Source: Kibdelosporangium persicum
Lineage (GTDB): Bacteria > Actinomycetota > Actinomycetes > Mycobacteriales > Pseudonocardiaceae
Length of the DNA: 64,000 bases
NCBI RefSeq assembly: GCF_013280595.1
Contig: NZ_JAAATY010000008.1
Coordinates: forward strand, 62,001-126,000
Reading direction: 5' to 3'
This document shows positions 18,277-36,278 of this stretch, in pieces. The notes below the pieces were generated by a model that ran no database searches, was not told the DNA's origin, and saw nothing but the letters and a program-made list of their open reading frames with translations. The position numbers and the translations under genes were made by a program. Position 1 is the stretch's first letter; each line of letters starts with the position of its first letter.

Positions 18277-18564
18277 TCAACGCGTGTGGGCGCCAGTGGG
18301 CTGTCCCGATGGGGCGGTTGGCGTCCTGGGCGCGCTGGGACGGCCGTAGTGAGGTGTCACGTCCCCCTGCGTCTCCCCCGGTATTCCGGCGGCGTTGCGT
18401 GCTTCACGTGCGCGGCCGGACGCGCCGGGCGAGTTGTCGCGGATGAACGCCAGGCACACGTCGGCACGAGTGCGACCATGCGCCTGTTGCGGGCGTGTCC
18501 GGCGCCACGGCTGGCCTGCCATTCCGTTTCGGACACGGGATGTTCTTCGGTGGGCCGTCTCCAC
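18277..18564 (-). CDS. Doubtful small basic ORF, 95 aa
   Basis: An Arg/Pro-rich ORF starts at GTG 18564 with only a weak ribosome site. It reads through a GGGGACGTGAC motif copy (QGDVTPHYG). Composition is not convincing, but it fills the 400-bp gap between xis and the next gene in the same direction, so a real small gene cannot be excluded. No homology is recognised. Confidence 0.25.
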   Translation of the reverse strand: METAHRRTSRVRNGMAGQPWRRTRPQQAHGRTRADVCLAFIRDNSPGASGRAREARNAAGIPGETQGDVTPHYGRPSAPRTPTAPSGQPTGAHTR

Positions 18565-18650
18565 AGTTGCCCGAGCCAGGCTGCCCCGGGGCGCCGCCCC
18601 GGGCGTTGCGGTGTACCGGGGTGGCGCTGGCAGTGCGTTGCGGTGGTGGG

Positions 18651-19157
18651 TCAGCGGCCGGGCAGGCCCGCGCCCAGGCCGGCCATGACAGCGGCCATCT
18701 CGGTTTCGAGGGCCTTCATCGCGGCTTTCGCTGCGTGGCGACTGGCTGTCAGGCGTTCCTCTGTGCGGCTGGCCTGATCCTCAAGCGCAGTGTCCATCGC
18801 GTACACCGCCTGAACGGCGCGATCGACGTGCGGTCGTAGCAGGGGAGCCAGCACGGCAAGTTGGGTGTGCGGTCGGGTGACCGCGCTACGGGTCGCCAGT
18901 GTCGCGGCCAGTGTGGATTCGATCTGCATGGCGTTGTTCCTGATACGTGCCGCTTCCAGATCCCACATGGCCGCGTAGTGGTTCGAGAGCGCGGTCATCA
19001 GGTCGCCGTAGATCTCCACCACAGTCACCTGCCACTCGTGCACTCTGCCAGCGGAGTCTGCCCGGCTTTTCAGGACACTGCCCACCACAGCACCGGTGAC
19101 AGTGGCCACCAGCGTGGATACGACCGTGATCACGGTTTGCCAAATCGGCATGGCCAT
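18651..19157 (-). CDS. Membrane-anchored helical protein, 168 aa
   Basis: An N-terminal hydrophobic helix (WQTVITVVSTLVATVTGAVV) precedes an all-helical, Ala/Glu-rich domain (HEWQVTVVEIYGDLMTALSN, QIESTLAATLATRSAV, and ASRTEERLTASRHAAKAAMK with coiled-coil character). The start is ATG 19157 with GAGAGG 5 bp upstream; the longer ORF start lacks support. Function is unknown. Its position between the replication genes and xis is within the element's leftward gene block. Confidence 0.6.
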   Translation of the reverse strand: MAMPIWQTVITVVSTLVATVTGAVVGSVLKSRADSAGRVHEWQVTVVEIYGDLMTALSNHYAAMWDLEAARIRNNAMQIESTLAATLATRSAVTRPHTQLAVLAPLLRPHVDRAVQAVYAMDTALEDQASRTEERLTASRHAAKAAMKALETEMAAVMAGLGAGLPGR

Positions 19158-19341
19158 AGTGACCTCTCTTGAATCTTTGAGGGAGGGAAAAGGGATAGGC
19201 CCTGTCAAGCGCGCTGTTCTGTCCGAAGTGGTCATGCCGCCTGGCATGGTGTGTGCGGGGTGTCACGTCCCCTACGTCTGCCCCCTCGGTTTCAGCCTGT
19301 CTGGTGTGGCTGTAACCGAGGGGGCGGGTTGTAGGGGTTTT

Positions 19342-19526
19342 AAACCCGGAAACCCGGCGCACGTGTGTTGACCTGGGAAAACAGGTGCCGGGTTTGAGTT
19401 GATCTCCGGGTTTGCAAACCCGGAAGTGCCGGGTTTCCGGGTTTGAACCGGACGAGGCGAGGAGAAACCCGGCGGTTGCATGTGCTGGTCAGGTGGTGTT
19501 TTCCGGGTTTCCGGGTTTCCGGGTTT
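19342..19526. repeat. CCGGGTTT octamer array (11 copies), clt- or iteron-like
   Basis: AAACCCGG starts at 19342, 19350, 19416 and 19465. CCGGGTTT starts at 19388, 19406, 19429, 19437, 19503, 19511 and 19519. Units are head-to-tail without spacing at 19342-19357, 19429-19444 and 19503-19526, and form a perfect 18-bp palindrome at 19406-19423. The array lies just beyond the stop of the helicase gene. Each tandem junction contains AACCCGGA, one base from the octamer GACCCGGA that, from memory, is the TraB recognition sequence of Streptomyces plasmid pSVH1. It may be the transfer locus (clt) or the replication origin. Confidence 0.75.
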
Positions 19527-19538
19527 GATTTCGGGGGG

Positions 19539-21143
19539 TCAGTCCGAGCTTGATCGTTTGACCCAGTAGATGCGGGCGTTGGTGGCCGGGTCGGTAGCCG
19601 ACCGGAGCACCATGTCACCGCGCCAGCGGCCGACCTGACCGGTGAGCCGGCGGCCGAGCGATTTCACCGACAGCAGCTTCCCTGCCGGGGTGGTCGGGAA
19701 CAGTCCGTTCCAGGGGTCGCCGCCGATGTCGGGTTCGGCGCTGCGGCGGACATCGTTGGCTGACAGTGCGGTCTCGCCGTGCAGTTGGTGCCAGCGCAGC
19801 AGAAACGCTTGCCATTCGGCGGCGTCGTCGTCCAGTTCCCGGGCGCTTTCGGTGTTGGCCAGGAACGACGGGACGCCGTGGTGTTCCAGGAACCCGCCGA
19901 CCCAGCGTGCCCAGCGGGTGAACTGCCGCATCTCCGGCACGGTGTTTGAGACGGGTGCGCCGTGCGCGGTCCAGTCCAGGATCAGGGTCAGCACGTGCCG
20001 CAGGACGGTGGCCCGGTTGGCCGGGTCGAGGATCCACGAGTCCAGATCAGGGATGGAGAACCCGGTGCGGGCTTCCGGCCGCGGGCAGTCCGGGTCGAGC
20101 CGGACCCAGATGGTGCGTGAGGCCATGTCGCCGCCGGTGCGCAGGTTGTTGCCGGTGGCCAGCCAGAGCCGGTCGTTGTCGTACACGGCGGCGGAGTTGG
20201 TGCCGAGTTTGCGGTCGGTCCAGGTGCGTTCGGTGACCAGCCGGGCCAGGTTGGCGGAGTTGATGACGGTGCCCTCTTCGAGGTTGTCGAACACCACCGC
20301 GCCGACCGAGTCGGCCAGCACGGTGGTGATGGACTTGCGCAGTTCGTCCTCGCTGTCGGTCCAGGTCAGCACCCGTTGGCCGACCAGCAGCCCGACACAG
20401 CTGGTCAGGATGGTTTTGCCGGAGCCGGGCATGGTGGCGTCCACGATCCCGAACGGCGAGAGCGTCCGGGTGAACGGCCGGATGATCGGCGTGACCAGCA
20501 ACCCGAGGTAGTTGGCGCGGTCGGCCGGCGTGCGCCACGGGAAGTCCACCAAAAACCGGTCGAGCAGGAACTCGCAGGCCTCGTTGACCTGCTGCGGGGT
20601 CGGTTTGTCCGGGACCGGATCGAGTACCAGAGAACCGGTGGTCAGGTAGAAGCCGGTGGCGCGGTCGTAGCCGGGGGTTTGCAGCAGCGTGCCGTCGGGG
20701 CGCAGCACCGGTGTGGAGATCACCCGCCGCAACGGCGGCAACCCTGGCCAGGACTGGCGGGCCAGGACCGCGGCCAGGACTTCGCGGCGGGGGGTGACTT
20801 CGCCTTTGTCGTCGACCACGGTGGCCTGTTCGGCCAGCAGGCTGGCCAGCAGCGGCGGGCGCAGCACCGACACGGCCAGCGGCATCGGCACGTCCTCATC
20901 GCCGGAGGTCACGTCCCCCGCTCCGGACACCGGTTCGATGACCACCGGGGCGCCGTCGGTGACGTAGGTGTCCGGAATGACCCGCTCGTCCAACGCCCGG
21001 GTCAACTCCCGGATCGTTTCCGGGTCGGACCCGACCCGGATCAGCTGGCGGGTTCCCGCCCGCGGCGGGTCGGTGTCGTCGCCGGTGTTGTCGACGGGGT
21101 GCAGGTGCCGGTCGTCAGGCCGATGCTGAGCGGCGGTGGTCAT
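19539..21143 (-). CDS. P-loop replication helicase/ATPase of the element
   Basis: The 534-aa protein has Walker A MPGSGKT (238-244), Walker B AVVFDNLEE (282-290), a sensor-like WLATGNN (327-333) and a putative Arg finger SRTIWVRLD. The order resembles superfamily-3/AAA-type phage and plasmid replication helicases. With the separate prim-pol gene upstream it would form the replication initiator of a RepPP-type AICE, which in other elements can be one polypeptide. The first roughly 110 residues are poorly conserved-looking and contain one GTCACGTCCC motif copy (GDVTSGDEDV). The CCGGGTTT array starts 13 bp after its stop. Confidence 0.72.
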   Translation of the reverse strand: MTTAAQHRPDDRHLHPVDNTGDDTDPPRAGTRQLIRVGSDPETIRELTRALDERVIPDTYVTDGAPVVIEPVSGAGDVTSGDEDVPMPLAVSVLRPPLLASLLAEQATVVDDKGEVTPRREVLAAVLARQSWPGLPPLRRVISTPVLRPDGTLLQTPGYDRATGFYLTTGSLVLDPVPDKPTPQQVNEACEFLLDRFLVDFPWRTPADRANYLGLLVTPIIRPFTRTLSPFGIVDATMPGSGKTILTSCVGLLVGQRVLTWTDSEDELRKSITTVLADSVGAVVFDNLEEGTVINSANLARLVTERTWTDRKLGTNSAAVYDNDRLWLATGNNLRTGGDMASRTIWVRLDPDCPRPEARTGFSIPDLDSWILDPANRATVLRHVLTLILDWTAHGAPVSNTVPEMRQFTRWARWVGGFLEHHGVPSFLANTESARELDDDAAEWQAFLLRWHQLHGETALSANDVRRSAEPDIGGDPWNGLFPTTPAGKLLSVKSLGRRLTGQVGRWRGDMVLRSATDPATNARIYWVKRSSSD

Positions 21144-21206
21144 GGCAGCCTGCCTTTCTGCGTCAGTGCGACGCGATGGAACGACGGGTGCAGAGGGTGC
21201 GGATGG

Positions 21207-22877
21207 TCATGCCGCTGTCACCGCTGACGGTGTCGCGCCACTGAGGGACGTGACATCGTCGCGGGTGATGGCTTCGACCACGGCGGCCCACAGGTCGCGG
21301 GAGACCGGTGGGGTGACGGCGTTGCCGCACATCCGGACCTTGACGCGTTTGGACGTGCCCAACAGCACGAACCCGGCCGGGAACGCCATCCCGAGTTTGA
21401 TCTCCTCGACCAGCAGCATCCGAAACAAACAGTCCTTGATCGACGGCGCGGCCCGCATGACCGCGTCACCCTCCACAGTGGTCTGTGTCGGCAACGGCGT
21501 GTCCAGGCCGCGCAGGCGGCCGGTGTCGTAGGCGTAGAGTACGTTCGGGTCCCAGGTCACCAGGCTCTGATGTCCGTCGGTGGTGAGCGTGCGCAGCGGT
21601 TCACCCACCGGCGTGCACATCTGCGCCGGGTTGCCACGGGGTGTGTTGTTGCGCATCGCCATCGCCAGCGCGTGATGGGTGCCGCCCGCGGCGAAGGTGT
21701 CCAGCGGATCCAGCACCTCTTTGACCCGGTTGTTGTTGCGCAGCGGCACCACCACCACAGCGTCGCTTTCGCGGGTGGTGCGGGTGCGCATCGGCACGAT
21801 CGCGGACTGCGCGTCGTCGTTCCATGTCCCGCCGGCCGGGACCAGCAGCGCGGTCTCGTGCCGTGCGGTCTGGGTCCGCACGGGGGACGTGACCGGTGCG
21901 GCGTGCTTGTTCTCCCGGCCTTCCACGGGAACCAGCGCAGGCATCACCCGCAACCGCTCACCGCTGTCACGTCCCCGCTGCGGGCGGGTGAACCGCGCCA
22001 GCCACGCCTCGATCCGGGCGGTGGTCTTGGGCGACAACGGCTCCGCGCGGTCACCGATCCGCTCGCCGCGCACCGACAGATCCAGCGCGGCCAGCGCGGG
22101 CAGCGCAAACGGCGCCACCTGAGTACCGCGGCAGGCGACCGAGGGGCAGCGGTAGACGTACTGACGGCCGTACGCCCCATACGGTTTCTTCGGGTTCTTC
22201 GGTGCGTGCAGCGCGGTAACGGTCTGCTCGCACGACGGGCACCACGCCCGCGGCCGGGTCCACCGGTCGAAATCCGGTGCCTGGTAGCGGTTCTGCCAGA
22301 ACACCACATACACCCGGTCGCGCAGCTGGGGTGCCGGCGCGCCCAGTTGGTGGGCGAAGGCGGAGTTGAGGGTGAGCACCTTGTGCTCGTAGCCGAGGTT
22401 GCGCATCCGGGCGATCCACTTGCCAAAGTACCGCCACTTCAGCAGCGGCGGGGTGTTCTCCACGATCACCGCGCGGTAGCGGTGGTATTCGGCGAACCGG
22501 GGCACGTCGTGCATCAACGCCCGGCTGCGTTCCCGGGCCTCGTCGGGCAGCGGTTCGTCGTCGGTGTCCTCGGTGCTGTCCAAGTCGAACAGGGTCGGAT
22601 CGGTCGGCTGGTCGGCGAAGTCCTGGCGTTCCCCGCGGGCCTGGGACCAGAAGGTGCACGCCGGGCTGGCCCACAACACGTCGGTGCGCGGAAACCGCCC
22701 AGGGTCCACGGTGGCAATGTCCTGGCGGTCATGGTCCACGTGCGGGAAGTTGTGCTGGTGTGTTTCGATGGCCAGGTCCCAGTGGTTGGCGGCCATCACC
22801 ACCCGCACACCCGGGACGGATTCGGCGCCAGAGGAACTGCCCCCTGCGCCACAGAACAGGTCCGTGACCGTGATCAT
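21207..22877 (-). CDS. C5-cytosine DNA methyltransferase
   Basis: The 556-aa enzyme has motif I DLFCGAGGSSSG (6-17), motif IV with catalytic Cys74 in ASPACTFWS (PAC instead of the usual PPC), motif VI VIVENTP (ENT rather than ENV), motif VIII PQLRDRVYVVF, and motif IX/X near the end (MAFPAGF, GNAVTPPVSRDLWAAVV). A CPSC/CPSVAC pair between them may bind zinc. Such solitary methyltransferases on phages and AICEs protect incoming DNA from host restriction; no partner nuclease is adjacent. Three motif copies (21245, 21883, 21966) fall in its linkers and C-terminus. Confidence 0.87.
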   Translation of the reverse strand: MITVTDLFCGAGGSSSGAESVPGVRVVMAANHWDLAIETHQHNFPHVDHDRQDIATVDPGRFPRTDVLWASPACTFWSQARGERQDFADQPTDPTLFDLDSTEDTDDEPLPDEARERSRALMHDVPRFAEYHRYRAVIVENTPPLLKWRYFGKWIARMRNLGYEHKVLTLNSAFAHQLGAPAPQLRDRVYVVFWQNRYQAPDFDRWTRPRAWCPSCEQTVTALHAPKNPKKPYGAYGRQYVYRCPSVACRGTQVAPFALPALAALDLSVRGERIGDRAEPLSPKTTARIEAWLARFTRPQRGRDSGERLRVMPALVPVEGRENKHAAPVTSPVRTQTARHETALLVPAGGTWNDDAQSAIVPMRTRTTRESDAVVVVPLRNNNRVKEVLDPLDTFAAGGTHHALAMAMRNNTPRGNPAQMCTPVGEPLRTLTTDGHQSLVTWDPNVLYAYDTGRLRGLDTPLPTQTTVEGDAVMRAAPSIKDCLFRMLLVEEIKLGMAFPAGFVLLGTSKRVKVRMCGNAVTPPVSRDLWAAVVEAITRDDVTSLSGATPSAVTAA

Positions 22878-22902
22878 GACTGCCTCTTTCTGTCCGGTGT
22901 GG

Positions 22903-22957
22903 TCACGCGAACTTGGTCATACGGCCGTCCCCTGCCACGTTTGGATGTCACGTCCCC
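22903..22957. repeat. 55-bp direct repeat, copy A
   Basis: This copy matches 23266-23320 with few mismatches and ends in the GTCACGTCCCC motif. It contains a vestigial start (ATG ACC AAG TTC GCG then TGA, read leftward) that copies the first codons MTEFA of the flanked gene. Copy A therefore looks like the decayed twin of the gene's own start region. Confidence 0.7.
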
Positions 22958-23282
22958 TAGCGGGCCTCGTGACTTCGGCATCGTCATCTGGTTCTTCGGG
23001 AGTGCGGTATTCACTGCCCCACGTCTCCCATTGGGACGGTGGAAGGTAGATCCAGACGCGGGCTGCCAGGTCGGTGCCCGATTTGGTGGTCTGGTAGGCG
23101 AAGGTGGTGGTGGGTGCGTAGCAGCGGCTGGCGCCGTCGGGGCGATCGAGCGGGCACCGCAGGCGTCGGCTGGCGCGGCGGGTGGCCAGCCAGTCGCCGT
23201 AGAAGTACCAGCGGTGATCGCGTGGTCCGCCGGACAGGGCGACCAGGTCGCTATGCGGGTCGTCCCACGCGAACTCGGTCAT
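22917..23282 (-). CDS. Hypothetical protein flanked by direct repeats, 121 aa
   Basis: The ATG overlaps the prim-pol stop (ATGA), so translation is coupled. The sequence is aromatic-rich (MTEFAWDDPHSDLVALSGG, HRWYFYGDWLATRRASRRL, ARVWIYLPPSQWETWGSEY) and probably a compact soluble domain. No known family is recognised. Its C-terminus ARGRDIQTWQ reads through a GGGGACGTGAC motif. The 55-bp sequence covering its start is repeated just after its stop, as if the gene were a unit gained or duplicated by recombination between repeats. Confidence 0.65.
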   Translation of the reverse strand: MTEFAWDDPHSDLVALSGGPRDHRWYFYGDWLATRRASRRLRCPLDRPDGASRCYAPTTTFAYQTTKSGTDLAARVWIYLPPSQWETWGSEYRTPEEPDDDAEVTRPARGRDIQTWQGTAV

Positions 23283-23320
23283 GCGGCCGTCCCGTTGCCA
23301 CACTGGGATGTCACGTCCCC
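23266..23320. repeat. 55-bp direct repeat, copy B
   Basis: This copy spans the prim-pol stop and the start of the 121-aa gene, and ends in a GTCACGTCCCC motif at 23310-23320. Spacing to copy A is 363 bp, the length of the flanked gene. Confidence 0.7.
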
Positions 23321-24298
23321 GTGCCGCGCTGGGGTTGTCGTGGGTGGGATGCGGGGACGTTTCGCCCCCGCGCGTAGTCCGTTGGTGATGGTGCGGCGCA
23401 GTTCGTAGTCGGTGCAGTCGCAGTCGGCGGTGAGCATGTGCCGTGCGGCGGCGAGCAGCTCCTCGAACGCGGTGGCCCAGTCGAGGCTGCCGCCGCCGAC
23501 GTGCTGTCCGAGGTTGCCCGCGGCGCTGTAGAGCGTCTTGGAGTGCTCCCCGGCCGGCGCGTCGGCGACGCGTTGGCATTCGCCGCACACGGCGGCGGCT
23601 GTGTAGGCCGCCAGGCGCGTCGAGGTGCGCGGTGGGGGTGCCGTGGTGTGCACGACCGGTTTGGGCGTCAGCAAGGCCGTGAGCCATGCGGGAAGCGGCA
23701 CCGGGGGCAGGTCCACGGCGAGTTCGTACATGCCGTCCGGGGTGATCGAGCCGGGCGCGACGATGTAGCCGCCCCAGGCGCGGGTGTCGATCTTCCAGCC
23801 CAGGCCGGTGCCATGCTCCCCCTCGGTGTTGCGCAGCCGTACCCCGGTCGGCGCGGCGAAGAACAGGTGCATCCCGCCCCGGGCGGTCAGTCCCCAGCAG
23901 GTACGGGGAAACGGCTGGCCCTGCTCGGTGCAGATCGCGGCGAAGTGGCCCAGCCCGTCCCGCACGCCCTGCGCTGCAAGGCCGGGCGGTGGCGTGTCCT
24001 TGGCGGACTTCGGATGATCCAGGTCGATCACCACCAGCCCGCTGGGACCGGTGGCGACGCCGATGTTGTACGGCGCGCGGGTCCAGGCCGCCCGGATCCG
24101 GTCCGGGTCGGTGGTGGCCCGCTGTTCCCAGCCCTGATGCCCGTCGCGGCAGAGCCCGGTACGGGGGCAGGGTTTGCGCGCGGTGTCACCGTGCAGCGCG
24201 GGCGGTTTCTTCAGGCCGGGCTGGATCGGGAAGACATGCCAGCCGCGCTCGGCAGCGGCCAGGGCCGCGGCCAGCAACTGACGGTGGGTGGCGTCCAT
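23279..24298 (-). CDS. Bifunctional DNA primase/polymerase (prim-pol)
   Basis: The 339-aa protein has the archaeo-eukaryotic primase fold of AICE and archaeal-plasmid replication proteins. Metal ligands lie in GLVVIDLDHP (Asp92 and Asp94) and around Asp171 (WKIDTRAWGGYIVAPGS), with the nucleotide-binding His144 in GGMHLFF. The N-terminal GWHVFPIQPGLKKP is the standard opening of the family. It would synthesise primers and extend them for element replication with the separate helicase. Its stop overlaps the next gene by ATGA, and its last codons read through a motif copy (HGDVTSQCG). Confidence 0.88.
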   Translation of the reverse strand: MDATHRQLLAAALAAAERGWHVFPIQPGLKKPPALHGDTARKPCPRTGLCRDGHQGWEQRATTDPDRIRAAWTRAPYNIGVATGPSGLVVIDLDHPKSAKDTPPPGLAAQGVRDGLGHFAAICTEQGQPFPRTCWGLTARGGMHLFFAAPTGVRLRNTEGEHGTGLGWKIDTRAWGGYIVAPGSITPDGMYELAVDLPPVPLPAWLTALLTPKPVVHTTAPPPRTSTRLAAYTAAAVCGECQRVADAPAGEHSKTLYSAAGNLGQHVGGGSLDWATAFEELLAAARHMLTADCDCTDYELRRTITNGLRAGAKRPRIPPTTTPARHGDVTSQCGNGTAA

Positions 24299-24477
24299 GC
24301 GGGTGTCCTTTCGCGGTCAACACGGCGTTGTCCGGTCGGTGACGGCAACCGGGTTGCTGCCCGGGAAAAAGGGCAGCGGCGCAGCCGCACCGCTCAGAGC
24401 AGTGCGGCGCGCCGCCGGGGCAGACAGAGGGTCGTCGGACGCGCTGTCGCGTCCGACCGGTAGGGAACGGATGCGGG
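24299..24477. other. Gap between ssb and prim-pol
   Basis: No gene is supported in these 179 bp. The stretch GAAAAAGGGCAGCGGCG and nearby GC blocks could form weak hairpins, but none is convincing. Confidence 0.3.
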
Positions 24478-24915
24478 TCAGAAGGGCGGTTCGCCGCTGT
24501 TCCACTGGCTGTCCGCAGTTGCCGACTGCGCGCTGGTGTCCCCGTCAGCACGGGTGGCCTTGGTCACGGTCACGGTGGCCCATCGCATGGACGCGGCGAC
24601 TTCGGCGACGTCCAGCTCGAACGCGTAGCGCTTCTCGCCCTGGCCGGTTTCATACGAGCGTTGCCGCAACGCGCCGGTGACCAGGACGCGGGCGCCTTTG
24701 GACAGTGAGTTGGCGAGGTTTTCGGCGGCTTGGCGCCACACGGTGCAGCGCAGGAATGTCGCGTCCCCGTCGATCCAGGAACTGGTTTTCTGGTCGTAGC
24801 GGCGGTCGTTGGCCGCGACGGTGAAGTTGGCGACCGCGGTGCCGGTCGCGGTGTAGCGCAGTTCCGGGTCGGCGGTGAGGGTGCCCGCGACGGTGACGTC
24901 GGGAAGGCCGGACAT
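24478..24915 (-). CDS. ssb: Single-stranded DNA-binding protein
   Basis: The 145-aa protein has the OB-fold signature: VTVAGTLTADPELRYTATGT, AVANFTVAANDRRYD, FLRCTVWRQAAENLANSLSK and GARVLVTGALRQRSYE. The tail ends GEPPF, a degenerate version of the acidic DDDIPF tip that recruits partners. ATG 24915 with GGAG upstream is the start; the longer frame upstream is low-complexity. It is an element-encoded SSB for coating replication or transfer intermediates. Confidence 0.9.
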   Translation of the reverse strand: MSGLPDVTVAGTLTADPELRYTATGTAVANFTVAANDRRYDQKTSSWIDGDATFLRCTVWRQAAENLANSLSKGARVLVTGALRQRSYETGQGEKRYAFELDVAEVAASMRWATVTVTKATRADGDTSAQSATADSQWNSGEPPF

Positions 24916-25030
24916 GGCAAGAACTCCTCTGGTCAAAGGTGACGGGGGTGTGGGGTCCGGTGTGACGCGGGCGCATGGTGTCTCCGCGTCACACCGGGGT
25001 GCGTGCCGCGCCACCCGTGGTGGCGGCTGG

Positions 25031-25852: not shown

Positions 25853-26012
25853 GGCAGAACTCCATCCAATGCGTCAACGGAGCGAACGCCCACTGAGGAC
25901 GACCGTTGGTCACGTCCCGTGTGGGTGTAAGGAACCTGGGAGTTAGCTGTCGCGGCGTCCGGTCACGCGTAGTTGCGTGGTGCGTCGGTGAGCCGATACA
26001 GGGTGCACGGCG

Positions 26013-28658: not shown

Positions 28659-28662
28659 CTCC

Positions 28663-30918
28663 CTAGGCGTCCACGCCCGCCTGCTCGCCGTCGGCACCGC
28701 CAGAACGGTCACGCTCCGCGAGCGCGGTGTGGACGAGGTCGGCACTGACGTGCATTTTGCCGTCGGTCTTGTACGGCGCGGCGTGGTACTCGGTCAGGTA
28801 CTGCTTGAGGTCGCCGAGTTCCCAGCCGCCGTAGGTGATGCGGTGCAGTTCGGTAAGCCGTTGCAGCACTTCCTGAGTGCGCATCTTGGGCAGGTCACCG
28901 ATCACGGTGGCGATGTCGGTCAGCGGGTCGCGTTGCGGCTCGCCGTCGTCGGCATCGTCGTGGCCGATGGTGCGGCCGTGTTGTTCGAGGATCTGCATGG
29001 CCCGGTCGATCACCCCGTAGGCGTCCTGTGTGGACACATAGTGGGACTTGGAGATGACGAACGCCATGCCGTCCGGAATGTCGTCAACCTCGCCGGTCAG
29101 CACGACGGTGCCGGCGTCCCGGCCGGGACGCAGGTCCTGAGGCCGGGCGCCCATGTCGGCGGCGTCGGCCAGGACCAGCTTCGCGGTCGGGTGGTTGGGC
29201 ACGTACAGGCTGGCCCGCACGTGCGCGCCTTCCCGGACCGCGACGGGCAGGGTGCGGTCGTCGGGCCGCTGTGTGGCCTGGTACAGGTGGATGTTGACCG
29301 CGCGGGCCTGGTCATGCAGCCGCTTGGCGGCCCGCCAGGCACGGGCGTCGGCCTTGGTGCCGCCGATCGGGTGCTGCTCGGCGTAGAGCACCTGGACCTC
29401 GTCGACGAACGCGTAGATCGGATGGAAACCCGATCCGGGCTGGCGCGACAGCTCCCGGGTGATGTTGCCCCGGATGCCCGCAGCACGTTTGGCCTCGTAG
29501 CGGCGTTGCATCTCTTCAACCAGGTCTTCGAGCATGACGCAGGTCGCTTCGGTCTGCTCGACCGCGGAACCCTCGATCAGGGTGTGCGCGCGGGGCTCGA
29601 ACATCGACCAGTCGCCGTCGCCCTTCAGGTCGGCGATGCGCAGCTCCACGGTCGGGTCCAGCGCCAGACCAAGGGCCTTGAGCCGCATGAACGCGGTCTT
29701 GCCCTGTTTGGACACCGCACCGATCAGGCCGTGCCGGTTGAGCATGCCCTGCTCGATCTGCTCCCCGCGCATGGTTACGCCGATCGGCAGCCGGTCGCGG
29801 AACACGTCGAACTCGCCGTTGAACTGCAACGGCCAGGGAGGGGCGGGCTTGTCCATCGTGCCCGCATCAGCGACCCACAGGTCCAGCACCCGCGCGTCGG
29901 CTTTCGGCTGGCGTTGCGGGTAGACCTCGTGCTTGTGCCGGCCGAGGTTCCCGGCGAGCAGCTCGACCCGTTTCGGGTCCAGGAAGTCGCTGGCCGCGCA
30001 CCCGAACGGCAGCCTGACCTGCACATACGTGCCGCCACCTTGCTGGCGCGGCAGCACTACGAACTCCAGTTGCTGTCCCTCTTTGAGCGCCTTGGTCAGG
30101 GACGTGACCTTGCAGTGCGTCAACGCGCGGGTGAGCATGCTCTCGTCGATCACTGCGAAGGATTCGGCACGCTGCTCGGGTGTGTGCAGCCACTCGGGCT
30201 CCCATGTGGAGTGTCGGCGGCCCTTGTGCCACAAGTACACCAGCACACCGGTGGTGGCACCGGTGACCAGCACGATCCCGTAGGCGGTGGCCACCCACAC
30301 CACGAACGCGACCGCGTCGATCACCGCGGTGATCGGGCCGGTCACCTGGCTGATGTCCTCGCGCGAGATCGCGAGGATCACCCCGAGGGCCAGCAGCAGT
30401 GCCGCGACTGAAAAAGCCGCCGTGGCCAGGGCTTTGACCACCCTGGCCGGTGAGTCGATCCAGTCCATCATGCGCTGGTGGCGGCGTTGTTTTTCTGCGA
30501 CCGCACGGGCTTCCCACTCCCGCAGGGCTTCCTGGTCACGGGACTGTTCGGCGTCGTTGAGCAGCCGCTCGTAGCGCGCTGATCCATGCGTGTCGCGCCA
30601 GTGCCTGAGCACCATCCCGGCCCCGGCGACCGGGTAGGACACGTTGCGCGCCAGCGCTTTGACCACCCGCAGCGTCCGCTGATGGGTCGCCACGGTGCGG
30701 ACTACGTGCACTACCACCGTGACGTCTCGTCGGTAGGCCTCGATCCGCTGCAACGCCAACGCTTTCTGGCTCGGGCGCCGCTGCTGGTATTCCTCCTCGC
30801 TGATCAGTTCGGCGTCCAGCACCTGTCCGGCCGGGTCGGCCGGGGGACGGTGGGGCAGGTAGTGCACGTTCGCCAACTCCTCCGGCCGATCGCCGCCGGG
30901 GGTGGTCCCGTCAGTCAT
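28663..30918 (-). CDS. traB: TraB-type FtsK/SpoIIIE DNA translocase
   Basis: The 751-aa conjugation protein pumps double-stranded element DNA between mycelial cells. Two hydrophobic segments (about 163-184 and 196-230) anchor it. Walker A is GAVSKQGKTA (400-409) and Walker B IYAFVDEVQ (501-509), with DARAWRAAKRLHDQARAVNI and YQATQRPDD in between and after. The C-terminal ~90 residues (MRTQEVLQRLTELHRITYGG) look like the winged-helix part that reads the DNA recognition octamers. The ATG overlaps the upstream gene's stop by 8 bp. One motif copy (30099) falls in the linker near residue 271. Confidence 0.9.
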   Translation of the reverse strand: MTDGTTPGGDRPEELANVHYLPHRPPADPAGQVLDAELISEEEYQQRRPSQKALALQRIEAYRRDVTVVVHVVRTVATHQRTLRVVKALARNVSYPVAGAGMVLRHWRDTHGSARYERLLNDAEQSRDQEALREWEARAVAEKQRRHQRMMDWIDSPARVVKALATAAFSVAALLLALGVILAISREDISQVTGPITAVIDAVAFVVWVATAYGIVLVTGATTGVLVYLWHKGRRHSTWEPEWLHTPEQRAESFAVIDESMLTRALTHCKVTSLTKALKEGQQLEFVVLPRQQGGGTYVQVRLPFGCAASDFLDPKRVELLAGNLGRHKHEVYPQRQPKADARVLDLWVADAGTMDKPAPPWPLQFNGEFDVFRDRLPIGVTMRGEQIEQGMLNRHGLIGAVSKQGKTAFMRLKALGLALDPTVELRIADLKGDGDWSMFEPRAHTLIEGSAVEQTEATCVMLEDLVEEMQRRYEAKRAAGIRGNITRELSRQPGSGFHPIYAFVDEVQVLYAEQHPIGGTKADARAWRAAKRLHDQARAVNIHLYQATQRPDDRTLPVAVREGAHVRASLYVPNHPTAKLVLADAADMGARPQDLRPGRDAGTVVLTGEVDDIPDGMAFVISKSHYVSTQDAYGVIDRAMQILEQHGRTIGHDDADDGEPQRDPLTDIATVIGDLPKMRTQEVLQRLTELHRITYGGWELGDLKQYLTEYHAAPYKTDGKMHVSADLVHTALAERDRSGGADGEQAGVDA

Positions 30919-31285
30919 GGTCCCGGTCCTTCCCGGACGGTTCCTCGGTGTTTGCGCTGTTCCCAGGCGGTGACGCGGTCCCGCCGCCGGGTGTGCGGTG
31001 GCGGCGGGTCAGCTGGATCTCGTGGGTGGCCCAGGCGGCGGCGATCACCCCGGCCGGCACCGCCCACGTGCCATCGACCGTGACGGCCAGCGCGAGCGGG
31101 ATCCCGACACCGGCCAGCTCCAGCCCGTGCCAGCCCAGCCACGCCGCCGCCAGCCGCGCCCGCGCCGTCAGACCCGGGGACGTGACCCGATCCCGCACCG
31201 CCGGAAGGCGGGCCGGTGGCACGTCCGCCACCGGCCCGGGACCGGTCTCGGGCTGGCTGGTGTTCCTCGCGTTGTCCGTGGTCAC
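30911..31285 (-). CDS. Small membrane protein, Spd-like, 124 aa
   Basis: Two hydrophobic helices (LAAAWLGWHGLELAGVGIPL and ALAVTVDGTWAVPAGVIAAA) lie between hydrophilic ends. It overlaps the traB start by 8 bp. Small membrane proteins encoded next to traB are usually Spd proteins, needed to spread the element along the recipient mycelium. The N-terminal tail reads a motif copy (DRVTSPGLT). Confidence 0.65.
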   Translation of the reverse strand: MTTDNARNTSQPETGPGPVADVPPARLPAVRDRVTSPGLTARARLAAAWLGWHGLELAGVGIPLALAVTVDGTWAVPAGVIAAAWATHEIQLTRRHRTPGGGTASPPGNSANTEEPSGKDRDHD

Positions 31286-31300
31286 TGCGATGTCACCTCC

Positions 31301-31525
31301 CTATGTGTTGTGCCGCAACGGTTCACGCCGCGACCATGACCCATCACCTGCGGAAACGCGGGTGCTGATCAGCCGGTCGATCCCGCTCATGCCCGCTTCC
31401 AGCACCCTGGCCACCGCCAGCAGCGGCCAACGGGCCAGGTGCAGCAGCAGAAACACCAGCAGCGCGGCCACGAACTTCGCCAGCGCCCACGTGCCGAACT
31501 CCTCCAGCACTTCGGTCGCGGACAT
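31301..31525 (-). CDS. Small membrane protein, about 74 aa
   Basis: One strong helix (FVAALLVFLLLHLARWPLLAVA) is followed by an amphipathic region and a basic tail. Its ATG overlaps the upstream stop as TGATG, so it is translationally coupled to the DUF2637-like gene. It is probably another spread component. Confidence 0.62.
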   Translation of the reverse strand: MSATEVLEEFGTWALAKFVAALLVFLLLHLARWPLLAVARVLEAGMSGIDRLISTRVSAGDGSWSRREPLRHNT

Positions 31526-32643
31526 CACGACACCGCCCCGGCCGGGCTGTTCCCGTCACCGCCGCCGTACAGCGCGTAGGTCACCACGATCGCGACCTGG
31601 GCGCGGACTTTCAGGAACCGCTGCACTTCGGTGCGGGTCGGGCGGGCCGGAAGCACGCCCGCCTGGATGCCCTCGCGTACCCGGGCCAGCAGCGCCGGAA
31701 CACGGCGCGCCACGCGTTCCGGAACGTCCGGCGGCAACACCACCTGATCCGTACCGGACGGGGTTTGTCCTGTTCCCGGCCTGTTCCGCGACTGGCTGGC
31801 GGCCGTGTCGGCCAGGTAGGCGGTGATCTCGTCCACCAGCGTCTCGGTGGCCGGGTCGATGCCCGGCAGCGGCCCGGGCGGCAACCCGGGAACAATCACC
31901 GGAACAAGCCGCGCCCGGCCCCACCACGTGCGGCCCAGCCGGACCAACCCCGGCTGGAACACCAGCCGCGCGGTGCCGTCACCCGACACGTCAGCCACCG
32001 CGTGACGCACCGCCGCGGCCCGCACGGCCACCGTGCGGCGCTCAGCCAGCCGCGCCAGCCAGGCCGCGTAGCGTTCCGCGCGGGTCGGCAGCGGACCGCG
32101 GGGCCGGGCGGTGATCAGTTGATGCACCACCACCCCACCGACCGACACCGCCGCCATCACCACGCCATCGCTGATCCCGCCGCCAGGCTGGGTGTAGCCG
32201 TGCGCGAAGTTCAACCCACCGGCCACCGCGCAACACACCCACACCCCCACCACCAGCCACCCGACCGGCCGCCCGGCCGCGCGCGCCATGGTCACCGCGA
32301 ACGCGAACGCCCACATCGACCCCTCGGTGAACCCCGGCAGCAGCACCCCCCACGCACCGAAGATCTCCCGGCCGTAGACAGCCATCGCCGGCCACGCCAG
32401 CACCGCCGGAATCAGAATGATCGGCAAGAACAGCAGATGCATCGCATGTGCACGCACCCACCCCGCGACCGCAGCCCGACGCGCCTGCCACCGCGCTGCC
32501 TTCTCCGCACGGTCCTTGCGTGCTTGCTCCGCCTGTACGGCCCGGTCGGCGCGCTCCTGCTCGCGCATCGCCAGCTGCGCCGTCAAGTTCCGCGCCGCAG
32601 CGGCGTCCTGGTCCTTGCGGCGCTCATCACGCCATCCCATCAC
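31525..32643 (-). CDS. Polytopic membrane protein, DUF2637/Spd-like, 372 aa
   Basis: The N-terminal 60 residues are a charged coiled coil (RNLTAQLAMREQERADRAVQ). Four membrane helices follow (HLLFLPIILIPAVLAWPAMA, FTEGSMWAFAFAVTMARA, GWLVVGVWVCCAVAGGLNFA, GVVMAAVSVGGVVVHQLITA), then a roughly 180-aa cytoplasmic domain. DUF2637-type proteins occur in most AICEs next to traB and are thought to be spread proteins. It is coupled to the next small membrane gene. Confidence 0.68.
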   Translation of the reverse strand: MMGWRDERRKDQDAAAARNLTAQLAMREQERADRAVQAEQARKDRAEKAARWQARRAAVAGWVRAHAMHLLFLPIILIPAVLAWPAMAVYGREIFGAWGVLLPGFTEGSMWAFAFAVTMARAAGRPVGWLVVGVWVCCAVAGGLNFAHGYTQPGGGISDGVVMAAVSVGGVVVHQLITARPRGPLPTRAERYAAWLARLAERRTVAVRAAAVRHAVADVSGDGTARLVFQPGLVRLGRTWWGRARLVPVIVPGLPPGPLPGIDPATETLVDEITAYLADTAASQSRNRPGTGQTPSGTDQVVLPPDVPERVARRVPALLARVREGIQAGVLPARPTRTEVQRFLKVRAQVAIVVTYALYGGGDGNSPAGAVS

Positions 32644-32946
32644 TCCCTCACCTCCCCTGCACGCGCAGGAACTCAGTCACAACACGAATCGAATCTGTCC
32701 CCATAGGACAGTCACGACGGCCGTTCCGCATTGGGCAACGCCGTTAAGGAACAGGCGCCTACGCCGTTCCACAGGGGACGTGACACCGGTCAAAGGTGGA
32801 CACCGTGGCCAACCAGCCACAGCAGCAGCGGATCGACCCGGGCGGCGAATGCGTGTAACTCGGTGCCTTCGCCGTCGGACTCGTCCCTGGCGGCACCCCA
32901 TCGGGCCTGTGGCCACGTCGCGTCCGGCCACTGATACTTGGTCTGG
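32644..32946 (-). pseudogene. Non-coding gap with an M23-peptidase tail remnant
   Basis: Read leftward, 32945-32790 is open and ends FAARVDPLLLWLVGHGVHL then TGA. That resembles the last residues of the M23 peptidase 700 bp away (RAARIDPLPWLARHGVHL). No start codon fits, so it appears to be the fragment of a second peptidase copy. A GGGGACGTGAC motif follows at 32774. The rest shows nothing. Confidence 0.4.
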
Positions 32947-33390
32947 TCAGCCGTGGCCGTTGCTTCTGGTGAAGGCGGCCAGCAGATCAGCGGGGGCGAC
33001 GGTCAGGGTCGGCTGATCGCTGCTGACCGGCCGGCGCAGCGCGGCGCCCAGTTCGTAGGCCTGACCGCTGTGCAGTGACACCAGCAGCCGCGCCGGGTGA
33101 CCTGCCAGATCCACCTGGACAGCGGCATCGCCCGACCCGCCGTAGGACAACGTGATCGTGACCGTGGTGTTGAACGCGGCAGCCCACGCACACAACCGGG
33201 TCAACTCGTCGATCAGGCGTTGTGTGGATCCCGACTCGATCGAGTACGGCAACGACAGGTAGGTCATCCCGCTGCCGTACACGGCAACCCGGTCGATGCG
33301 CGGAAGGTGGTCGTATTCCGCGAGCGCCGTAGCCACCTCGGTCATCAACCGGGTCACGTCAGCCGTGGTAAGCGCGGCAGTGGTGTTCAT
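32947..33390 (-). CDS. Hypothetical protein, 147 aa
   Basis: The start MNTTAALTTADVTRLMTEVA has GAGGGAGA upstream (ATG 33390). The protein is mixed alpha/beta with no membrane segment (VTITLSYGGSGDAAVQVDLA, HPARLLVSLHSGQAYELGAA). No family is recognised. It belongs to the leftward conjugation block, downstream of the M23 gene. Confidence 0.62.
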   Translation of the reverse strand: MNTTAALTTADVTRLMTEVATALAEYDHLPRIDRVAVYGSGMTYLSLPYSIESGSTQRLIDELTRLCAWAAAFNTTVTITLSYGGSGDAAVQVDLAGHPARLLVSLHSGQAYELGAALRRPVSSDQPTLTVAPADLLAAFTRSNGHG

Positions 33391-33483
33391 GGTGGTCTCC
33401 CTCGAAAGAACCGAATCCCCAGTAGCCGGTGTGGACACCACCGCCGCGCAGCGCGAGGCGCGCGGCGGCAGCGAGAGGAACGC

Positions 33484-33978
33484 TCAGAGATGCACCCCGT
33501 GGCGGGCCAGCCACGGCAGCGGGTCGATCCGGGCGGCGCGCTGGCCGCCGGGCCAGACCTCGAAATGCAGGTGCGGGCCGGTGGATTGGCCGCGGGAGCC
33601 GACCGTAGCGATCTGCTCCTCGGCGGCCACGTCCGCACCGTGCGGCTGGTCGATGGTGTGCATGTGGCCGTAGACGGTGACTGTGCCGTCCGGGTGGCGC
33701 AGCCGCATCCACAGGCCGAACCCGGATGCGGGTCCGGCTTCAATCACGGTGCCGTCGGTGACCGCCCGGATTGGGGTGCCTTGCGGTGCGGCGATGTCGA
33801 TGCCGTAATGCGGGCCACCACTGCGTGGCCCGTAGCCGGAGGTCAGCCGCCCGTCTGTAGGCGCGACGTACCGGCCGCTGGGGACAGCGTCCGCACCCGT
33901 GGTCGGGTTGTTGGTGTGGTGGTAGGCCACAGCGGCGACCACGACGGCGACCACGATCACCGGGCCACTGCGGGCCAT
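33484..33978 (-). CDS. M23 (LytM/lysostaphin-type) endopeptidase
   Basis: The 164-aa protein has an N-terminal membrane anchor (VIVVAVVVAAVAYH) and one M23 domain. Zinc ligands are visible in GPHYGIDIAAP (His57 and Asp61) and GPHLHFEVW (His136-x-His138), with YGHMHTI between. It cuts peptide cross-links of peptidoglycan outside the membrane. In a conjugative element this would open the wall at the mating or septal site. Its ATG overlaps the upstream stop as TGATG. Confidence 0.88.
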   Translation of the reverse strand: MARSGPVIVVAVVVAAVAYHHTNNPTTGADAVPSGRYVAPTDGRLTSGYGPRSGGPHYGIDIAAPQGTPIRAVTDGTVIEAGPASGFGLWMRLRHPDGTVTVYGHMHTIDQPHGADVAAEEQIATVGSRGQSTGPHLHFEVWPGGQRAARIDPLPWLARHGVHL

Positions 33979-34457
33979 CAGTCGTCACCTGCCCGGCACT
34001 GGCAGGTGTCCTCGGTCACGAGCCGGTTCGGTGTGGTCCATACGGGACACGGAGCGGTGTGCGGCCCGGCCAGCCCATCAGACGGATCCCCGGCCGCGCC
34101 GGCAAGCCGGGCGCGGATCCTGGTCGCAGCGCGGGCCAGCACGGTAACCGGGTCCACCCCGATGCTGTGCATCGCCACCAGGCTGCTCAGGCACACATCA
34201 GACAGCTCATCAGCGACATCGGCCAGTGAGTGGGTAACGCCCTTGCGAGGGTTCTGTCCAGTCGCGCCGATCCAGGCCCGGGAGACCTCCCCGACCTCTT
34301 CACTGAGCTTGAGAATGCGGCACTGTGTCTCGTGCAGGCTGTGCCCGTTGTGCCGATCCAGCCACCGGGCCACTGCCCGGGTCGTGGCCACGATGTCCTG
34401 CTCCGGTGCCCCAATACCGGCCGATCGGTCAGCACACGGGTGCGGGTTGTCTAGCAT
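33978..34457 (-). CDS. MazG-like nucleotide pyrophosphohydrolase family protein
   Basis: The 159-aa helical protein has the metal-binding pattern ILKLSEEVGEVSRAWIGA (E-x-x-E) and HSLADVADELSDVCLSSLVA (E-x-x-D), the core of all-alpha NTP pyrophosphatases. The C-terminal 50 residues are Cys-containing and variable. ATG 34457 with AGGAG upstream is chosen over a longer unsupported frame. The likely role is cleaning or altering dNTP pools; some mobile elements carry MazG homologues to modulate stress signalling. Confidence 0.75.
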   Translation of the reverse strand: MLDNPHPCADRSAGIGAPEQDIVATTRAVARWLDRHNGHSLHETQCRILKLSEEVGEVSRAWIGATGQNPRKGVTHSLADVADELSDVCLSSLVAMHSIGVDPVTVLARAATRIRARLAGAAGDPSDGLAGPHTAPCPVWTTPNRLVTEDTCQCRAGDD

Positions 34458-34545
34458 GGTGATCTCCTGACTGCGTCGGAGAATGCGGTGGGAGACCCGG
34501 CCCGGCGGGGTCTTCTTCGCGGGAGGACCGCCGGGCCGGGCGACA

Positions 34546-34725
34546 TCACCGGCGGGTACGCACGATGTGCTCATCCTTGTTCTTGCGACCGAACAACGCC
34601 CCCGCGGTGCAGGCCAGGGCGATCAGGCCCATGCCGATGGCGATGCCGAGTTCGCCCATGCCGCCCGCCGTGTACGCCAGGTACCCGAACACGACGGCCA
34701 GGATCACCAGAATCAGCTTCAACAT
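34546..34725 (-). CDS. Two-helix membrane peptide, 59 aa
   Basis: MLKLILVILAVVFGYLAYTA and a second helix GIAIGMGLIALACTAGALF, then a charged tail KNKDEHIVRTRR. GGAGG lies 6-7 bp before the ATG. It is the size and shape of small Spd-like peptides of AICEs. Confidence 0.6.
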   Translation of the reverse strand: MLKLILVILAVVFGYLAYTAGGMGELGIAIGMGLIALACTAGALFGRKNKDEHIVRTRR

Positions 34726-34843
34726 CACATACCTCCACAGTGGTTTTCGTTGGTGTTCAACACTTCCGCCCGCAGACCACAGCTGGTGGCCAAGGGGCGT
34801 GAACCTGAGTGCCGTGCCGATATCGCCGCACGCCGTGGCGTGA

Positions 34844-35347
34844 TCAGGACGCGGCACAGCCAGCACTGTCGACCGCGTCGACAATCGCCCTGGCAGAGTT
34901 CTCATGCCGGGCATACGCGGCGGGAAATCCCGAGCGCTGCACCGCTTGAGCGGCGGTGGTGACGCTCATCTGCTGCCAGCCTGGCACGGAACGCAGACGT
35001 TCGTAGAACTTCCGGGCGCTGTAGCTGGGGCTCATGATCTGTACCGGAGACCCCCAGCCCATGCTCGGCCGCTGCTGGAACAAACCCAGCGAGTCCCGGT
35101 CGCCGTGATTCAGGTTGCGCAGCCCGGACTCCTGCAACGCGGTCGCCACCGCGACCACCCTGCCCCGCTCCGGAATGCCCATGTCCCGGCCGACCGCGAC
35201 GATCGTGGCCGCGTTGTCCAGCTGGTCCGGTCCGTACCCGGACACCAAGCACACCGTCCCGCGGGCGGTTCCGGTGTCCGGGCCGGCCAGATACCCCACG
35301 ACCACGACACCGGCCAGCACCGCGCCCGCTTTGGTCAACAACGACAT
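34844..35347 (-). CDS. Lysozyme-like transglycosylase
   Basis: The 167-aa protein has a membrane or signal segment (KAGAVLAGVVVVGYLAGP) followed by a lysozyme-superfamily core: VAVATALQESGLRNLNHGDR with the probable catalytic Glu, then DSLGLFQQRPSMGWGSPVQI. It would cleave peptidoglycan glycan strands. With the M23 endopeptidase the element encodes both glycan- and peptide-cutting activities, fitting wall remodelling for DNA transfer. ATG 35347 is used; the ribosome site is weak. Confidence 0.8.
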   Translation of the reverse strand: MSLLTKAGAVLAGVVVVGYLAGPDTGTARGTVCLVSGYGPDQLDNAATIVAVGRDMGIPERGRVVAVATALQESGLRNLNHGDRDSLGLFQQRPSMGWGSPVQIMSPSYSARKFYERLRSVPGWQQMSVTTAAQAVQRSGFPAAYARHENSARAIVDAVDSAGCAAS

Positions 35348-35381
35348 CACGACCACCTGACCCGGAGTAGGGCGCGGGTCT

Positions 35382-35600
35382 TCACGCCGCGTCCAGCAAC
35401 GCGACCCGCTCGCTCCGGACATGGGCGACGGCAGGTGCCGGGGCGGGCGGTGTCTGGCTGCTCCTGCCGGGGCAGGTCGTACGCCAGGTGCCGCAATGCA
35501 CCCGCACCTGACGGCCGTCGCCCAGCCGGGCCAGGACCGTCAGTGAGCCACAGCCGAACGCGCAGTTGCGCAGCGTTTGGTCCGGGTCGGGAAAGTTCAT
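35382..35600 (-). CDS. Small hypothetical protein, 72 aa
   Basis: MNFPDPDQTLRNCAFGCGSL then VLARLGDGRQVRVHCGTWRT and a Pro/Ala-rich tail. The Cys residues (CAFGC, HCGTWRTTC) could bind zinc. AAAGGA lies 9 bp before the ATG. No family is recognised. Confidence 0.45.
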   Translation of the reverse strand: MNFPDPDQTLRNCAFGCGSLTVLARLGDGRQVRVHCGTWRTTCPGRSSQTPPAPAPAVAHVRSERVALLDAA

Positions 35601-35777
35601 GACAGTGCGTCCTTTCTGGACATCCGTCTCGGTACAGCACGACAGGCCGGGTCAGCGCAGGCGCGCGGGCGAGCATGACCGGTTTGGCGGCTCCCATTGG
35701 ACGGAATGGTGGTGAGGATCAGGATTCGCGCCGCATGGCTCCACACCGCGGTGGTCGCGACCGTGCCGCAGCGGCGG

Positions 35778-36278
35778 CTACGCCGCCCACGCGGCGAGAC
35801 TGTCTACCGGGGACGTGACACCCGGCAGGGGCGTGCACGGCGTGGACTCGGTCAACGCGGTGATCTCCGCATCGATCCGGTCACGCTGCACGGGATCGGT
35901 GGTCTCCCACCACAAATCGATCAGCTCACGCAACCGGTACGCCCTCGCCCAGCCCGCGTCCAGCGTGGCTGACCGGTCGGGCATTGGGCGCACGCCGCAC
36001 AACGGGCACCGCCGGGCCGCGCCGCCCATCCGCTTGATCTGCCGCTCCCGCGACCGGGATCCCCGCCAGGTACGGGCCAGCGTCCACGTGATCCCCGCGG
36101 CCTGCACCACTTGCAGCAGCCGCGCACCCTGCCCGGCTTCGTGCAGCGCCAGACGGGACGTGACATTCTTGGCCCACCCGATGTAGTGGCGGGCATGCCG
36201 ATACGGCCGGTCAAAGTGCAACAGATACACCGTGCCCACATACCGGTCGGGCACCGTCACCGGGCTAGCCGAGTCCAT
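35778..36278 (-). CDS. GIY-YIG-like nuclease domain protein
   Basis: The 166-aa protein contains VYLLHFDRPYRHARHYIGWA, the GIY-YIG hallmark (YLLH...HYIG), followed by a conserved-looking helix with Arg (RLALHEAGQGARLLQVVQAA) and RSRERQIKRMG. CPLCG follows, then a helical tail. Two motif copies lie in it (36155, NVTSR; 35809, GVTSPVD near the end). Such domains act as endonucleases in repair, homing or DNA processing; an element-processing role is possible. It overlaps the upstream gene by 14 bp. Confidence 0.7.
   Translation of the reverse strand: MDSASPVTVPDRYVGTVYLLHFDRPYRHARHYIGWAKNVTSRLALHEAGQGARLLQVVQAAGITWTLARTWRGSRSRERQIKRMGGAARRCPLCGVRPMPDRSATLDAGWARAYRLRELIDLWWETTDPVQRDRIDAEITALTESTPCTPLPGVTSPVDSLAAWAA

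Follow-up and report, generated by a model that had tools for sequence, protein, structure and literature searches.

Why should an integrated element of Kibdelosporangium persicum hold the same 10-bp DNA word many times over, facing mostly one way on one side of a single point and the other way on the other side? The element is an actinomycete integrative and conjugative element (AICE) about 27.8 kb long. A 31-bp repeat marks each of its boundaries, and the one on the left lies inside a tRNA-His gene (16105-16178). The AICE sits in a stretch of 64,000 nucleotides (contig NZ_JAAATY010000008.1, positions 62,001 to 126,000), here called the window, to which all coordinates refer unless stated otherwise. 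The word is GTCACGTCCC. A preliminary description had offered three explanations for it, namely a guide for the element's translocase TraB comparable to the FtsK-orienting polar sequences (KOPS), a landmark for replication or segregation, and the recognition site of the element's C5 cytosine methyltransferase. In this study, we show that the word is a conserved, polar site system at the level of DNA. Its best tracker is a gene overlooked in that description, which lies downstream of traB and its hairpin and which we name MCR after its N-terminus MCRxGGRRC.

Both strands of the window together contain 19 exact copies, as originally counted, and every one falls within 18356-36164 (17.8 kb). The rarity of such a word by chance had also been asserted; indeed, 100 dinucleotide shuffles of the window gave a mean of 0.50 copies and a largest count of 2. 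Thirteen of the 19 copies carry an extra C and thus extend to 11 bp. The genome of 10.35 Mb holds 75 copies, 56 of them outside the AICE (about 5.4 per Mb), and 15 copies of a control word read backwards. At the chromosomal density 0.097 copies would be expected in 17.8 kb (P ~4e-37 for 19), and an equal density in the chromosome is excluded. The orientations are likewise as first reported: 12 of the 14 copies left of 28.6 kb read forward, all five right of 30 kb read reverse, and the hairpin-forming repeats directly 3' of traB, at about 28569-28664, lie within the interval where the orientation flips. A single switch fits 17 of the 19 copies. Random orientations equalled that in 923 of 100,000 trials, so the polarity of the window alone is modest evidence, and its strength comes from relatives. 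The flip is not one of gene direction, since the open reading frames (ORFs) picked by codon-position composition are all on the minus strand from int to about 37.3 kb, in agreement with the Pfam matches. The GC skew of the window flips sign at 30 kb and the AT skew at about 32 kb, but base skew fails to explain the polarity of the word, because left of 30 kb its C-rich face sits on the G-rich strand.

To collect relatives, TraB was searched for in 297 genomes of the family, 173 of which gave matches. The best-scoring places down to genome G133, minus contig 13 of G020, yielded 32 regions, mostly of 40 kb and some ending at contig ends, or 33 with the window. GTCACGTCCC occurs 26 times in G131, 20 times in G027, 19 times in the window, ten times in G147, seven times in G295a and six times in G031; four copies each are found in G194 and G287, three in G060 and two each in G148 and G295b, and the other 22 of the 33 regions have none or one. 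The reversed control word does not exceed one copy in any region. Together with six further loci from the scan for MCR genes described below, 17 regions have at least two copies. Between -9 and +12.5 kb of the traB 3' end, 122 of their 128 copies point to that end, 105 of 109 downstream of traB and 17 of 19 upstream, both upstream exceptions being in G027. The same is true of 29 of the 33 copies that lie more than 4 kb downstream, past the extent of most MCR genes. The AICE regions share ancestry, and the polarity counts are therefore non-independent events. A de novo search for polar words placed GTCACGTCCC on top in 11 of the 17 regions, the others being G060, G287, G031, G148, G295b and L107. 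Separately, a different polar word, TGGCCGAG, was seen in G238a and G238b (L067, L068, L085, L086), two AICEs without a match to the MCR profile, with 17 and 14 copies reading one way and 4 and 3 the other way.

Conservation of the positions in relatives was found in part only: several sites are kept and others turn over. Nine coding copies could be aligned with G131, besides three that fall in gaps. Four correctly oriented copies in genes 84-89% identical are unchanged, and three correctly oriented copies in genes 40-42% identical are not kept. In the methyltransferase gene, 89% identical between the two elements, both wrongly oriented copies are not kept and the correctly oriented one is conserved. 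The two wrongly oriented copies of the window, small as their number is, look fortuitous for this reason. G027 keeps four of seven alignable copies (three in gaps) and G147 one of four (six in gaps). As a baseline, conserved residues otherwise keep identical codons at 60-66%.

That the constraint is on DNA, as had been claimed, is well supported by coding copies in all three frames and by intergenic copies. The 13 coding copies of the window AICE compare with a mean of 0.92 and a maximum of 4 in 500 synonymous shuffles; the corresponding values are 11 against 1.30 (maximum 5) in G131, 9 against 0.55 (maximum 4) in G027 and 6 against 0.35 (maximum 3) in G147. The 15 MCR proteins surveyed contain 31 [GR]DVT tetrapeptides, and 28 of these are encoded by this very word; it is not used for two GDIT stretches that the search expression picks up as well. 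A role at the level of RNA was considered and fits badly, as the copies upstream of traB are antisense to genes. The site is strict: in 16 motif-bearing regions, G190 and G295b being left out of this comparison, exact copies number 127 against 2.2 expected from 21 motif-poor regions, whereas all 30 one-mismatch forms pooled number 68 against 35 and have no polarity (39 of 68).

Which protein might read such a site? Eight MCR N-termini were used as queries against the genome contigs and gave 34 stretches, from which 12 loci were confirmed, in Kibdelosporangium (2), Saccharothrix (5), Umezawaea, Lentzea (2) and Kutzneria (2). Six of these were already in the TraB set; divergent MCR genes can escape such a scan, since its queries were drawn from motif-bearing elements. 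All 12 loci have an array of the word, with 3 to 19 copies, one of them beginning 10-32 bp ahead of the ATG. Ten of the 33 regions were matched by a profile built from 15 MCR N-termini (E 0.01); nine of these ten have at least two copies, one lying shortly before the start codon. Among the 23 regions without a profile match, 21 have zero or one copy, the exceptions being G031 (six) and G295b (two). The MCR proteins (L099-L110 and that of the window) share their N-terminus and vary in their middles and ends, several with repeated VGSQHDV-like stretches, which, judging by eye, we take to resemble amyloid signalling motifs. Two small clusters of the word, in G163 and G114 (spacings of 129-135 bp; 135 and 414 bp), were set aside as probable repeat-protein genes; the 20 kb read there show no MCR gene of the canonical kind. 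The K. persicum genome itself has a further cluster on contig 10, where two inspected 20-kb pieces contain no MCR-like N-terminus. The MCR scan of viral contigs gave no relative and that of phage records no match; a paired-word scan of the viral contigs matched 18 stretches.

The word, or a one-base variant of it, meets the gene on plasmids too. A plasmid search with one MCR N-terminus matched two records weakly (E 1e-3 and 8e-3). In NZ_CP108429, a 39.7-kb plasmid of Amycolatopsis sp. NBC_01286, an MCR gene is accompanied by 39 copies of GTCACGTCCC and by none of the reversed control. Although the record (L125) is labelled circular, its inverted terminal repeats make a linear form probable. 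Of the 39 copies, 34 conform to one inward switch placed immediately ahead of the start of MCR. With the mirrored copies of the right end removed, 28 of 32 fit, and 9 of 20,000 random orientations were as good; with both ends removed the figures are 23 of 26 and 29 of 20,000. Its TraB-like protein matches pRL1 and gives no tblastn match in the AICE regions (E 1e-4). Exact GTCACGTCCC is absent from pRL1, a plasmid of Streptomyces sp. 44030 that also has an MCR gene. It carries seven one-base-variant copies, all inward: six are ATCACGTCCCC, two of them mirroring each other, and one is CTCACGTCCCC, ahead of the MCR ATG. Genome G022, a single contig of 11.8 Mb, has palindrome-rich termini and ends that, over the 20 kb examined, repeat each other in register and inverted, and its chromosome is apparently linear. 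Within 10.5 kb of each end lie eight inward copies of GTCACGTCCC, seven of the eight preceded by TGACCAGC (L117, L145); these ends could be captured ends of a linear plasmid. An extended telomere-type word, ACCAGC-N3-6-TCACGTCCC, has at most two copies per genome in 394 genomes of the class. No copy of the word was present in 26.3 kb read of the 150.7 kb of plasmid FU40, which carries a homologue of the hypothetical protein encoded at 9329-11005 of NZ_CP108429. The accessible part of a paper on streptomycete telomeres, including that of pRL1, contains CACGTCC 0 times (PMC8743542).

We favour, with a probability of roughly 0.47 for the reading as a whole, a binding system of the SpdA/sps kind that has turned into a polar guide, with the MCR protein as its reader. 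GTCACGTCCC would be a strict, asymmetric protein-binding site belonging to the mobile element, most likely read by the protein that the neighbouring gene MCR encodes. Through the copy shortly ahead of its start codon, MCR would regulate itself, as has been proposed for comparable SpdA/sps genes. The remaining sites would be held in one orientation per arm and point inwards to a hub, which would be the MCR 5' end and, in AICEs, also the traB 3' end with the candidate transfer locus (clt) in the hairpin. The bound protein may then be a one-way marker by which a DNA motor, either the TraB pump or a replication fork, is oriented or the arms are told from the hub, during replication, segregation or transfer. 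A directional process such as replication, translocation or end processing is suggested because the polarity holds on both sides of one hub and is independent of transcription. The enrichment of the word, its strictness, the selection at DNA level, the recurrent polarity and the co-occurrence with MCR stand far more firmly than this mechanism.

For the link between site and gene, the SpdA2/sps system of plasmid pIJ101 is the closest comparison. SpdA2 is reported to bind the palindrome sps within its own gene, and its loss to affect segregational stability; plasmids without spdA have no sps, sps is rare on chromosomes and overlaps the start codon in pSVH1, and SpdA2 is conserved only in its N-terminal part (PMC4170104). 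Our word too sits in or at the start of its partner gene in 12 of 12 MCR loci. It is present in nine of ten MCR regions, and G031, G295b and the G022 ends have it without an MCR match. The sps core GTCACGTGAC and the G-rich GGGACGTGAC agree in 8 of 10 bases, in a post hoc comparison. However, sps is a palindrome in one to three copies, whereas the word is asymmetric and polar, with up to 39 copies spread over a replicon. An asymmetric word does not conform to the 12-bp sps palindrome CGTCACGTGACG, the sps core is absent from nine loci tested, and MCR and SpdA2 lack significant similarity. With KOPS and the SpoIIIE recognition sequences (SRS), the guides of FtsK and SpoIIIE, and with the architecture imparting sequences (AIMS; PMC5993296), the word shares the character of a short, strict, over-represented polar oligomer that converges on one locus and is partly coding. 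It is longer than these, is confined, as far as examined, to mobile replicons and the ends of one chromosome, and, unlike KOPS, does not follow its FtsK-like translocase. The fork traps Tus/Ter and RTP/Ter also have polar sites opposed on two arms and a gene beside one site; the word has far more copies on a small replicon, and fork arrest by it is hypothetical. The hub resembles TraB-clt in that it adjoins traB and a hairpin of repeats, a candidate clt; the hairpin repeats suit the role of the TraB recognition sequence (TRS), an 8-bp repeat at clt in Streptomyces (PMC4170104), better than the dispersed word does. By analogy, then, the layout is like that of KOPS or Ter and the gene link like that of sps. 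The word is filed as a member of neither KOPS nor sps, because covariation with the translocase failed and neither a palindrome nor SpdA homology was found. The open-licence literature searched gave no description of this word in such elements, and, among the matches listed, the papers containing its letters concern other subjects.

Several findings weigh against MCR as reader of a hub-centred code. G077 is without any copy, although its MCR N-terminus is clear (profile E 1.4e-15). The six copies of G031 are accompanied by nothing closer than a divergent gene (MCRKHRRC) that scores under the profile threshold; four of them lie within that gene, and its start has none. In G022 no MCR N-terminus was detected among the 150 of 659 candidates scored, and a further search found only another domain elsewhere. 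The copies of NZ_CP108429 are densest at the ends and not at the hub. Common descent explains part of the association between gene and word, because in short-array elements most copies fall within the MCR gene or close to it. Similarity between the MCR N-terminus and SpdA2 is not significant (hhalign probability 0.4%), and the PDB chains that the N-terminus matches are helical and mostly designed, which leaves a DNA-binding fold putative.

The wider claim, that AICEs and linear plasmids with differing transfer proteins share a replicon-specific polar address code read by a new MCR family of DNA-binding proteins, is tentative. If it is true, KOPS- or Ter-like guidance would travel with mobile elements without being tied to FtsK or TraB, and MCR proteins would carry the word in their own gene as well. 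A code common to both kinds of replicon would amount to a portable guidance system of mobile DNA. Transfer of double-stranded DNA in actinobacteria needs TraB and clt. How arms are told from the hub, and how SpdA-type factors act, are questions that a polar word and a candidate reader encoded beside the hub make testable, and the hairpin repeats that seem to change with the TraB C-terminus offer a possible clt code.

The proposal of a KOPS-like guide for TraB stood in its first half, as the polarity towards the traB 3' end is KOPS-like, and is unlikely in its second. TraB is FtsK-like and its C-terminal region resembles a winged helix by eye; nevertheless TraB as the reader is distinctly improbable. 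The TraB proteins of G295a (seven copies) and G210 (none) are 81% identical, pairs of G295a and G194 with G210 ranging over 77-81%; that of G095, with one copy, is 58% identical to TraB of the window; and NZ_CP108429 has the word together with a TraB-like protein unmatched in the AICE regions. What changes with the TraB C-terminus, by eye in the window and its 32 relatives, is not the word but the repeats in the 350 bp 3' of traB: GGGACCC in G295a, G210 and G194, GGGGAAG in G276 and G060, GGGTGGA in G256, AAGTGGA in G230 and GGGAG types in many others. Because these repeats track the C-terminus, as expected of clt, TraB already has another likely site, and they are possibly a TraB-clt recognition code. 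The suggestion that GTCACGTCCC is the recognition site of the C5 methyltransferase did not hold up and is very improbable. The gene is present in the element of the window and, by tblastn or Pfam, in G131, G027, G295a, G148, G147 and G194 (tblastn with the window protein missed G147, G194, G060 and G031; Pfam PF00145 found genes inside the G147 and G194 elements). It is thus common among word-bearing elements and not required, the G031 genome (six copies) and the 40-kb region of G060 (three copies) having none, and it occurs in six motif-poor regions (G276, G245, G032, G230, G238a and G238b). Moreover, a methylation site leaves the polarity unexplained. No more credible is the idea that the word results from codon bias or from a protein linker (GDVT) that recurs: GDVT or RDVT is indeed what many of the copies within MCR encode, but codon shuffles fail to reproduce the copies, the tetrapeptides have a single spelling, and copies are found between genes and antisense within other genes.

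A landmark of replication would suit the wobble-position skews; its sites, for polar fork arrest of the Tus/Ter type or for priming, would converge on a terminus placed at the hub. In same-strand genes of the regions with at least two copies, the pooled third-codon-position G/C skew runs +0.18, +0.02 and -0.07 upstream of and within traB, and -0.30, -0.26 and -0.15 downstream; the T/A skew runs +0.44, +0.25, -0.07, -0.26, -0.26 and -0.12. A parallel is tus, which is autoregulated and has an adjacent Ter. But among the 33 AICE regions those with fewer than two copies also show a weaker change of the same kind around traB, and the G/C skews of chromosomal genes, both close to the element and on contig 10, range from -0.21 to +0.02. 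The copies are independent of the identity of the Prim-Pol replication protein, which was itself rejected as a reader (G295a, 32% and seven copies; G210, 52% and none), and a repeat cluster near 25.4 kb of NZ_CP108429, if it is the origin, would set the polarity against fork movement. We regard this explanation as unlikely. A host-encoded factor acting on DNA ends or element forms, for instance in Chi-like end protection or a telomere-linked function, is likewise unlikely, if marginally less so. It would account for the inward copies at both G022 ends in a genome without a detected MCR gene (the mirrored ends being one observation) and for the way inward copies crowd into the inverted terminal repeats of the NZ_CP108429 plasmid. 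The G-rich GGGACGTGAC points to the ends, and Chi is oriented with its G-rich strand pointing to ends. Against it stand the background density in the chromosome of the window genome, the scarcity of the word in all but two of the TraB regions without an MCR profile match, and the possible plasmid origin of the G022 ends. A host-wide KOPS or Chi was rejected, since the word is not abundant chromosome-wide (56 copies in the remaining 10.3 Mb). Many MCR-free inward arrays of GTCACGTCCC or ATCACGTCCC in actinobacterial linear replicons would favour a host reader over the MCR protein.

Table 1. Copies of the polar word and associated features of the AICE (positions in the window)
Feature	Position	Strand	Remarks
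Integrated element (AICE)	16130..43984		bounded by 31-bp identical repeats at 16130 and 43954
traB, FtsK/SpoIIIE-like translocase	28663..30918	-	PF01580 21.3 bits (under 24-bit cut-off); PHROG FtsK/SpoIIIE-like 7e-18
MCR gene, candidate reader	26013..27980	-	655 aa, N-terminus MCRAGGRRC
Hairpin-forming CAGGGAG/GCCTCCCT repeats, candidate clt	28569..28664		directly 3' of traB, at polarity switch
AAACCCG iteron cluster, candidate replication origin	19342..19526		11 copies
Prim-Pol replication gene	23279..24298	-	
C5 cytosine methyltransferase gene	21207..22877	-	unlikely reader
GTCACGTCCC copy 1	18356..18365	+	hub-pointing
GTCACGTCCC copy 2	19262..19271	+	hub-pointing
GTCACGTCCC copy 3	20908..20917	+	in replication gene 19539-21143 (GDVT); identical in G131, G027, G147
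GTCACGTCCC copy 4	21245..21254	-	wrong orientation; methyltransferase gene; unconserved in G131 (9/10 bases)
GTCACGTCCC copy 5	21884..21893	-	wrong orientation; methyltransferase gene; unconserved in G131 (8/10 bases)
GTCACGTCCC copy 6	21966..21975	+	methyltransferase gene; 10/10 bases in G131
GTCACGTCCC copy 7	22947..22956	+	intergenic
GTCACGTCCC copy 8	23310..23319	+	Prim-Pol gene 3' end
GTCACGTCCC copy 9	25909..25918	+	intergenic
GTCACGTCCC copy 10	26319..26328	+	within MCR gene (KGRD)
GTCACGTCCC copy 11	26821..26830	+	within MCR gene (GDVT)
GTCACGTCCC copy 12	27424..27433	+	within MCR gene (RDVT)
GTCACGTCCC copy 13	27987..27996	+	6 bp upstream of MCR start codon
GTCACGTCCC copy 14	28487..28496	+	overlaps 5' end of NUDIX ORF 27988-28491
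GTCACGTCCC copy 15	30099..30108	-	within traB
GTCACGTCCC copy 16	31177..31186	-	within ORF 30911-31285
GTCACGTCCC copy 17	32775..32784	-	intergenic
GTCACGTCCC copy 18	35810..35819	-	same in G131; not in G147
GTCACGTCCC copy 19	36155..36164	-	same in G131; not in G147

Two further genes of the element deserve mention. The integrase ORF (16329-17849) contains a LacI-type helix-turn-helix at residues 303-346 (Pfam 2.9e-15), flanked by integrase matches, and the AT-rich cargo of the AICE encodes a NACHT-domain protein at 40213-43290.

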